Virus record (IMG/VR): IMGVR_UViG_3300024348_000138
Location: 1 to 34,731 of that record
From: a virus
Direction: 5' to 3' (one strand)
Length of the DNA: 34,731 bases
The notes under the pieces were generated by a model. It was given only the letters and a program-made list of their open reading frames with translations, ran no database searches and was not told the origin of the DNA. The translations under genes were made by a program, and so were the position numbers. Each line of letters begins with the position of its first letter. Position 1 is the stretch's first letter. Positions 33,413 to 34,671 of the stretch are shown here, in pieces.

Positions 33413-33592
33413 ATGAACTTACAACTACTATCTAACCCAAACAAACTATCCTCAGGCGTAATGCTTGAGGGTGTTTGTCTTGAACACTTAAACAACATCA
33501 GAGCTGAGATTCTTACATCCAAGAGCTTTGCCAAATGGAGACAAACGATCAAAAAAGAACTTAAAAAAATTCAAAATGCACATAACAGTTAA
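33413..33592 (+). CDS. Hypothetical 59-residue protein
   Basis: A small helical protein with a Leu-rich start (MNLQLLSNPNKLSSG) and a Lys-rich end (KWRQTIKKELKKIQ). It begins 9 bp after the SSB-like gene and overlaps the next gene by 17 bp. No family recognised. DNA or protein binding is possible from its charge. Confidence 0.58.
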   Translation: MNLQLLSNPNKLSSGVMLEGVCLEHLNNIRAEILTSKSFAKWRQTIKKELKKIQNAHNS

Positions 33593-33884
33593 AAAAATCG
33601 GTATGTTCTTTAACACCATTAAGGAAAAAGGACAAGACCTGGCTACTTCAAAAGAAAAAACATTAAAGCAAGACCAAATCATTCTAAACGCTTTTAAGCC
33701 TAACGGAATGAATAGTGCTTGGCTAATGTATAACGCCAACGTATTGCCTCACGGAACGCCCATAACCTCTTATCGCAGAAGTTTTAACACTCTACATGAG
33801 CAAGGTAAGATTGAAAGAGTAGGCGCAAGAATTGGCAACCTGGACAAAAAAGAATTTACTTATAAATTAAATTTGGAAATTTAA
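33576..33884 (+). CDS. Winged-helix-like DNA-binding protein
   Basis: A 102-residue protein starting at ATG 33576; a longer version from a TTG (33528) would reach deep into the previous gene and is not preferred. It has an HTH/winged form: NTIKEKGQDLATSKEKTLK as early helices, SYRRSFNTLHEQGKIERV as recognition helix plus strand, and EFTYKLNLEI as wing. It is the last gene before the promoter and structured leader at 33872-34001, so it might regulate the replication operon. No closer family recognised. Confidence 0.6.
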   Translation: MHITVKKIGMFFNTIKEKGQDLATSKEKTLKQDQIILNAFKPNGMNSAWLMYNANVLPHGTPITSYRRSFNTLHEQGKIERVGARIGNLDKKEFTYKLNLEI

Positions 33885-33902
33885 ATATAAATAGTATATT
33901 CG
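33872..33902 (+). promoter_or_regulatory. Bacteroidota-type promoter of the replication operon
   Basis: TTTG at 33872-33875, exactly 19 bases, then TATATTCG at 33895-33902. This matches TTTG-N19-TAnnTTTG with one mismatch. The predicted start is at about 33908, right before the first hairpin of the leader RNA. It would drive the replication initiator and dnaB genes across the window junction. Confidence 0.7.
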
Positions 33903-33910
33903 CACCGTTA

Positions 33911-34001
33911 TGATGGGGTGAAGACCATCAATTAAATAACAAAGATATTAGTCACACCAGTAGAGATTGCTTCACCAACTCTACGGGTTGTGGCTTTTTT
34001 T
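33911..34001 (+). ncRNA. Structured leader RNA with kissing-loop potential and terminator
   Basis: Two hairpins lie between the promoter and the initiator gene. Hairpin 1 (33911-33930): TGATGG pairs with CCATCA around the loop GGTGAAGA. Hairpin 2 (33951-33994): GTCACA-CC pairs with GG-T-TGTGGC, then after an A-G mismatch GTAGAG pairs with CTCTAC, leaving the 13-base loop ATTGCTTCACCAA. Seven T follow (33995-34001), so hairpin 2 is a rho-independent terminator. Loop 1 GGTGAAG (33917-33923) is fully complementary to CTTCACC (33970-33976) in loop 2. It may be a transcription attenuator for the replication operon or a stand-alone RNA of about 95 bases. No known riboswitch class was recognised. 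Confidence 0.65.
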
Positions 34002-34014
34002 ATTAAACAAAAAC

Positions 34015-34671
34015 ATGGCAAAACGATTAACTGATACCGAGAAATGGAAGAAACCCTTTGTAAGGGGTTTAGATGCACCTTATAAGCTCCTTTGGTTTTA
34101 TATTTTAGATGACTGCGACCATGCTGGAGTATGGCAAGTTGATGAAGATGTCGCTAAAATTAGAGTAGATAAAACTATAGATTTTAAAATCGCTAAAGAA
34201 CTTTTTAAAGAACAAATACAAGTAATTGACAACGGCAATAAGTGGTTTATTTTTGATTTTGTAGAGTTTCAATATGGACAATTAAATCCTGATAATAGAG
34301 TTCATAAATCAGTTTTAGACATATTAAATAAATATAAAATTAAGCCCCTTAGAAGCCCCTTAAAAGGTGCTATGGATAAAGATAAAGATAAAGACAAGGA
34401 TAAGGACAAAGAAAAAGAGCCAAAAACTTTGTTTGATTTAACCTTTGAAAGTTATTTAGACATGAGGGTAAAAATTAAAAAACCTGCAACCGATTTAGCA
34501 ATGGAATTAATTAAAAAAGATTTGAATAACTTTGCACCTGGAGATGAGCATAAACAAATTTTAATCTTAGAGCAATCAATTAAGAATAATTGGGCAGGTG
34601 TATTCCAATTAAAACAAGAACAAATATTAGAACCTAAAACAAACAACCTTAAAGAATATAAACCAAGATGA
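34015..34671 (+). CDS. Replication initiator / helicase loader-like protein
   Basis: A 218-residue protein upstream of dnaB. Residues 1-110 are a probable winged-helix DNA-binding domain (opening LTDTEKWKKPFVRGLDAPYK, with LLWFYILDDCDHAGVWQVDE). Then comes a basic stretch, an alternating Asp-Lys linker (about 121-134) and a C-terminal helical domain (about 136-218). Replisome organisers of many phages have this form: N-terminal origin binding, linker, C-terminal helicase loading. The ATG at 34015 follows the terminator-bearing leader by 13 bp; an upstream TTG at 33967 would lie inside the terminator hairpin. The stop overlaps dnaB as ATGA. The 3' end is duplicated at 1-245. Confidence 0.78.
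   Translation: MAKRLTDTEKWKKPFVRGLDAPYKLLWFYILDDCDHAGVWQVDEDVAKIRVDKTIDFKIAKELFKEQIQVIDNGNKWFIFDFVEFQYGQLNPDNRVHKSVLDILNKYKIKPLRSPLKGAMDKDKDKDKDKDKEKEPKTLFDLTFESYLDMRVKIKKPATDLAMELIKKDLNNFAPGDEHKQILILEQSIKNNWAGVFQLKQEQILEPKTNNLKEYKPR
34342..34416. other. Candidate replication origin inside the initiator gene
   Basis: AAGCCCCTTA occurs twice in tandem with an 11-bp period (34342-34351 and 34353-34362), followed by AAAAGG that makes CCTT-AA-AAGG a dyad. Directly after this lie seven GAYAAR/GAAAAA hexamers (34375-34416), purine-rich on this strand. C-runs are rare elsewhere in this AT-rich genome. Iteron-like repeats next to a repetitive AT-rich region inside the linker of an initiator gene is how lambda (within O) and other phages place their origin. 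This is a prediction. Confidence 0.4.

Follow-up and report, generated by a model that had tools for sequence, protein, structure and literature searches.

A leader RNA with covarying kissing loops and a terminator hairpin ahead of phage replication initiator genes

A two-hairpin leader precedes the replication initiator

The window, a viral contig of 34,731 nucleotides from IMG/VR (IMGVR_UViG_3300024348_000138), carries a replication initiator gene whose leader contains a promoter, two hairpins and a run of seven T, as read directly from the sequence (Table 1). The encoded protein matches PHROG 678 ("replication initiation O-like") with an E value of 1.3e-8, and its ATG follows the T7 run after 13 nt. 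This order, a TTTG-N19-TATATTCG promoter sequence, then the hairpins and the T7 run ahead of the initiator, had been described in the initial annotation and is present at the positions given there. The second hairpin had been drawn with 14 pairs and a 13-base loop; the hairpin itself stands, and its dimensions are revised, since folding gives 18 pairs and a smaller apical loop. In this fold, a bulged A is followed by a UUG/CAA closing helix, and the apical loop reads CUUCAC(C). Both hairpins are predicted by folding (-29.1 kcal/mol, z = -3.5 against dinucleotide shuffles). The scan for terminator-like structures matched the window only as an alternative short stem (33976-33990) with the same T tail. 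On the minus strand, one sigma-70-like match was found at 33922-33893, by consensus only. The two hairpin loops share an exact seven-base complementarity; by our own arithmetic, the chance that loops of 8 nt and 13 nt share a 7-nt match is about 14 x 4^-7 = 0.0009.

Table 1. Features of the leader region in the window
Feature	Positions	Strand	Basis
Upstream small-protein gene, ending at the promoter	33576..33884	+	phrog_9069
Bacteroidota-type promoter, TTTG-N19-TATATTCG (TTTG, 33872-33875; TATATTCG, 33895-33902)	33872..33902	+	Sequence
5' hairpin 1, 6 bp, TGATGG/CCATCA (33911-33916 / 33925-33930)	33911..33930	+	Folding
Loop of hairpin 1, GGTGAAGA	33917-33924	+	Read directly
Kissing strand 1, GGTGAAG	33917..33923	+	Perfect 7-nt complement of 33970-33976
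A/U-rich linker, 19 nt, unpaired	33931..33949	+	Folding
Hairpin 2, intrinsic terminator stem, 18 bp	33950..33995	+	Folding, terminator-like scan match
Kissing strand 2, CTTCACC, in the apical loop of hairpin 2	33970..33976	+	Complement of GGTGAAG
T7 run of the terminator	33995..34001	+	Read directly
Replication initiation protein, O-like, 218 aa, ATG at 34015	34015..34671	+	PHROG 678

The layout recurs in viral contigs

Replication operons of well over a hundred viral contigs start with this leader layout, and at least 17 different loop pairs occur among them. A scan with the initiator protein returned 80 loci, with upstream regions of the same layout carrying other loop pairs, and further leaders were collected with a 15-base pattern of the main subfamily and with two more initiator searches. 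The count stands at 76 distinct leader RNAs with 17 different 7-mers in 177 locus hits (some contigs being counted twice). Two more loop versions (L033 and L057) lie outside this count, and a test sequence with one base removed (L062x) was left out of models and counts. Some relatives of the initiator (e.g., L013-L018, L026 and L061) have no kissing leader directly upstream.

The window has the complete family layout, i.e., promoter box, 5' hairpin, A/U linker, 7-bp loop match, terminator and start of the initiator operon. At one related locus (L004), where the initiator is 97% identical to that of the window, the loops read GTAGAAG/CTTCTAC instead of GGTGAAG/CTTCACC, so two loop pairs are compensated and all seven are kept. 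There, stem 1 is rebuilt to TGAAG/CTTCA, and hairpin 2 has the bulge and the closing helix of the window around a loop of exactly 7 nt. The linker of the main subfamily is 13-15 nt long and contains a conserved AACUUAUU. A model of this subfamily (R2) finds L032, L039, L043, L286 and L290 (E values from 1e-6 to 3e-4), of which L032 and L043 were part of its alignment; the window leader and L004 were not found with it. Thus, it is by architecture, context and its own covariation with L004, and not by model score, that the window subtype is assigned as a putative member of the kissing-leader family, and common descent with the main subfamily is likely. One 7-mer pair occurs in both orders, GTCGCAT/ATGCGAC in L044 and ATGCGAC/GTCGCAT in L043, with loops 1 and 2 exchanged between subfamilies.

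All copies found lie in viral contigs or in one phage genome. The searches for host or prophage copies were run with no positive control. A protein scan of genome contigs gave none. Of 296 Bacteroidota genomes scanned with the R1 model (see below), one matched, as a false positive, and none of 395 Bacteroidota genomes matched R2 under strict filters. Five DNA-pattern matches, four of them in Bacteroidales/Bacteroidota MAGs, were rejected, as they are without such hairpins and look like coding sequence. The promoter type and gene content point to Bacteroidota as the probable host phylum. At one locus, in a phage assigned to a cyanobacterium (Pseudanabaena phage Pan5, ON968456.1, 35854-36210), the N-terminus of the initiator is 56% identical to that of the window and the gene stands behind an HNH gene; either the gene has been transferred widely or the host assignment is in doubt.

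Of the cultivated phages, Tenacibaculum phage JQ carries a leader that ends in a terminator and in which a 15-nt and a 10-nt loop share a complement of 8-9 nt (GCATCCTAC/GTAGGATGC), ~35 nt upstream of a small gene preceding the initiator. Since the same scan on shuffled genomes gives about one 7-nt match each, the JQ case rests on position and on the longer match, and this leader is likely a relative of the family. BLAST of the leader against cultivated phages gave no leader-like match. In Polaribacter phage P12002S, Nonlabens phage P12024S, Flavobacterium phages 11b and 6H and Croceibacter phage P2559S, nothing exceeded the shuffle level with a scanner that also misses the window leader.

The loop-loop helix covaries

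Given that the 76-leader counts demanded a perfect 7-mer, they are unfit to prove complementarity. The following three analyses are free of this bias: the choice of loops from stems alone, a wider candidate scan, and covariation in an alignment (A6) of the matches to a model (R1) made from seven leaders, in which only the two hairpins, and no loop-loop helix, were specified. In A6, all 217 of 217 cells of the kissing columns, which are unpaired in the model, are Watson-Crick with zero G-U, and changes on both sides occur at six of the seven positions. The kissing covariation score is 0.395 versus 0.085 when shuffled, and 0/500 shuffles scored as high, although kinship among the leaders raises counts of this kind. 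When the partner was shifted by 1-3 columns, pairing fell to 17-43%. The stems change in the same way: in the main subfamily all four pairs of stem 1 covary and are 100% paired, and the hairpin 2 stems of relatives covary as well. With loops picked from the stems alone, 33 of 34 distinct members were Watson-Crick at 7/7, and the 34th is a wrong loop choice. In the wider scan, 43 candidates reached 7/7, a single one 6/7 and none 5/7, over a background of at most 4/7, part of which consists of true leaders with the wrong first hairpin picked. In addition, the kissing helix is found with other letters outside A6, in L004, L030 (six pairs), L033, L057, L255, L258 (this and the preceding one being less certain), L286 and L290. 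The initial annotation had proposed that the two loops pair and had named loop covariation beforehand as the test on which the idea depended; the complementarity is exact in the window, and in relatives it is both conserved and covarying.

The loop letters themselves are free to vary. Across 19 tabulated loop versions, the 7-mers differ at all seven positions, with three or four pair types each at positions 3, 4, 5 and 7, and position 2 is biased to U and position 6 to A. Loop 1 tends to N-U-N-N-N-A-N (14 of 19 versions), and loop 2 likewise by complementarity. As free duplexes, the 7-bp helices range from -6.4 to -9.6 kcal/mol (sd of 0.95, versus 2.54 for random 7-mers), a narrow band that is mostly explained by base composition. 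Diversifying selection on the loops is not supported, given that in near leader pairs their divergence is average (0.10, with stem 1 at 0.23 and the rest at 0.13); this speaks against a part in an arms race or in immunity. Finally, hairpin 2 contains G-U pairs on the sense strand, which the other strand would read as A-C mismatches; thus, the sense strand is the structured one.

The leader keeps its place while downstream genes change

Of the 76 distinct leaders, 74 have a TAnnTT(T/C)G box ahead of hairpin 1, 56 of them within 3 nt of the same spot. The distance from the end of the T-run to the next ATG is 3-8 nt in 66/76, whatever gene follows, which bears out the attenuator-like position in front of the replication initiator that had been suggested for the window. 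The genes that follow encode O-like, HTH_36/DnaD-like, Lin1244_N, DUF1376-like and replisome-organizer initiators. The same 7-mer can precede different initiators, and different 7-mers can precede one initiator; GTCGGAT, for instance, is common to ~40 locus hits with many different initiators. Since one leader serves several initiator types, initiators have been swapped behind a constant leader, a putative RNA switch.

Genes for HNH, GIY-YIG-like, methyltransferase and deaminase proteins are found inserted between leader and initiator, with the leader keeping the head of the operon. In the group of the window (L003, L005, L006, L010 and L012), the leader is thus found ~2-2.5 kb further up, before the inserted genes, of which the methyltransferase and deaminase genes were named by eye from sequence. 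The slot behind the leader is an insertion hotspot, as observed in these five loci and in L032, L039, L045 and L066, and its contents are methyltransferase-like genes, a deaminase with other nucleotide genes, and HNH and GIY-YIG-like genes. Members of the main subfamily have, ahead of the leader, a gene that ends at its promoter and codes for a 64-aa winged-helix protein (HTH_39, E value of 5.9e-15; e.g., L062:2703-2894), a candidate regulator of the promoter or of the RNA. The initiators have a low-complexity linker of DK/MV repeats between two conserved parts, variable in length and composition (DKDKDKDKD in the window, 34363-34418; MVMDKVMDKV in others).

A probable cis-acting attenuator and its alternatives

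The reading of these sequences that we favor as probable is that the leader attenuates transcription, in cis, of the phage replication operon that it heads. By this reading it would be an RNA switch for viral DNA replication of a kind not described before. The leader stays while the gene behind it is exchanged, and there is no room for a promoter after it, which is most simply understood if it regulates readthrough in cis. RNA polymerase would start ~5 nt after TATATTCG, and hairpin 1 would be made at once, its 7-nt loop awaiting a partner. The complementary loop, which caps the terminator hairpin, would follow after another ~50 nt. Between the two loops a 7-bp kissing helix could then form, whose energy, if calculated for a free duplex, is about -6 to -10 kcal/mol. 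As the U-run ends few bases before the start codon and leaves no room for a promoter, every initiator mRNA would have to read through the terminator, and whether the kissing fold is formed or not may set or tune the readthrough frequency and hence the amount of initiator. The direction that we prefer is taken by analogy from the guanidine-IV riboswitch: co-transcriptional kissing would hinder timely closure of the terminator and transcription would continue, and competition or delay would lead to termination and a stable RNA of ~90 nt. Transcription, attenuation and the direction of the effect are all inferred. By our rough estimate, with a linker of 13-20 nt against a rod of 24-30 bp, kissing and terminator closure need not exclude one another. 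The anatomy is thus no proof of a switch, and kissing may either promote or prevent termination.

Points against the attenuator are the lack of conserved loop bases able to bind a ligand and the initiator relatives that have no kissing leader directly upstream. In the main subfamily, hairpin 2 has two 3x3 internal loops. The inner one (GAA opposite GGA or GAA; e.g., L036:1251-1297) hardly varies and may offer a protein or ligand a tandem G-A site. A riboswitch pocket in these internal loops, possible in that subfamily, was discarded as the common function, as they are absent from the window subtype.

The same architecture can be read in other ways. The leader could be a free small RNA of ~90 nt acting in trans, for which kissing is an internal fold and the site before the initiator merely a safe home. 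Such an RNA would be well served by a promoter of its own at the 5' edge, a terminator of its own and a compact two-hairpin fold in nearly all members. However, it has no need for the 3-8 nt gap between U-run and ATG kept in 66/76 leaders, and no conserved single-stranded stretch for target pairing exists outside the linker. The fixed spacing to any next gene favors action in cis, and we regard the trans-acting RNA as rather unlikely. Homotypic pairing, in which dimers or oligomers arise because loop 1 kisses the loop 2 of a second molecule, would leave the same covariation within one RNA as pairing in cis, and there are phage RNAs whose kissing loops covary and pair between molecules (PMC12286853). 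It is nevertheless quite improbable, considering that a linker apparently long enough for intramolecular pairing (by our own estimate) is nearly always present and that a structural role for a replication-gene leader is not evident. The 7-mers are also inverted repeats beside replication genes, in the main subfamily just downstream of a winged-helix gene, as would suit a DNA element, either inverted half-sites for a protein or a single-strand origin or priming site beside the initiator. Yet each 7-mer falls exactly within a hairpin loop, the stems of the two loops covary separately, and the sense-strand G-U pairs, together with a promoter and U-run in register, are needless for half-sites, so this reading is highly improbable.

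A self-regulating, ligand-free copy control from the same strand would have terminated leaders build up with genome copies, pair with new leaders and alter their termination, the 7-mer being an interchangeable code, including one for specificity or immunity between phages. If true, it would match replication-initiator output to phage genome number. At least 17 matched 7-mers with strict Watson-Crick pairing are in line with this, and plasmid copy control is the classic setting of kissing loops. Against it stand the average loop divergence in near pairs, the sharing of GTCGGAT among loci with many initiators, and an intramolecular partner that should outcompete one in trans; we consider such control, with or without the code, unlikely.

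Most known kissing loops belong to a small number of conserved ligand-binding pockets or to antisense pairs. The leaders described here offer at least 17 natural, fully matched 7-bp kissing pairs, with which the effect of a loop-loop contact on an intrinsic terminator becomes directly testable.

Comparison with known systems

At gathering level, Rfam gave no match in the window or in 16 relatives, and permissive e-value scans of three leaders returned unrelated families only, far below threshold, in agreement with the statement in the initial annotation that no named RNA family fits. With this leader, the control of DNA replication in a large group of phages, most of them uncultured, would gain an RNA element that Rfam 15 does not contain. 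No description of such an element was found in full-text literature searches (subscription journals, preprint servers and supplementary tables being outside their scope), nor was it found in two catalogues of candidate bacterial RNAs (PMC2864571, PMC8040213).

The likeness to plasmid copy-control RNAs, drawn at the outset, holds for the kissing loops and not for the details, since both loops lie here on one strand. In ColE1 RNA I/RNA II and other copy-control RNAs, 7-nt loops form full kissing helices and control replication. There, the partners come from opposite strands and complementarity is automatic, whereas in the leader both belong to one RNA and selection has to keep them matched. Replication initiator genes with a terminator in their leader are also known from pT181 and pIP501, where, however, control is exerted by an opposite-strand antisense RNA and an anti-terminator helix. 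Short of a systematic search, neither an antisense promoter nor an alternative helix was noted in the present case. Complementary loops within one sequence that pair between molecules occur in the phi29 pRNA. The same is described for the phage RNAs GOLLD and ROOL (PMC12286853). All three are far larger or differently built intermolecular assemblies, and not terminator leaders before replication genes.

The closest mechanistic analogue is the guanidine-IV riboswitch (GGAM-1 or mepA motif), a gene leader in which the loops of two hairpins, the second being an intrinsic terminator, have been proposed to kiss and thereby block completion of the terminator stem (PMC7736828, PMC11611296). Two hairpins, loop-loop pairing and a terminator as second hairpin are common to both, in our case by folding and covariation. 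The downstream genes are different, and the leader does not match the Rfam models. Moreover, the loop bases of guanidine-IV are highly conserved and needed for guanidine binding, whereas those of the phage leaders vary and still match. Since the topology is thus alike without conserved loop bases, the loop-loop contact itself, and not a ligand pocket, is, as judged from the aligned sequences, the conserved feature of this family.
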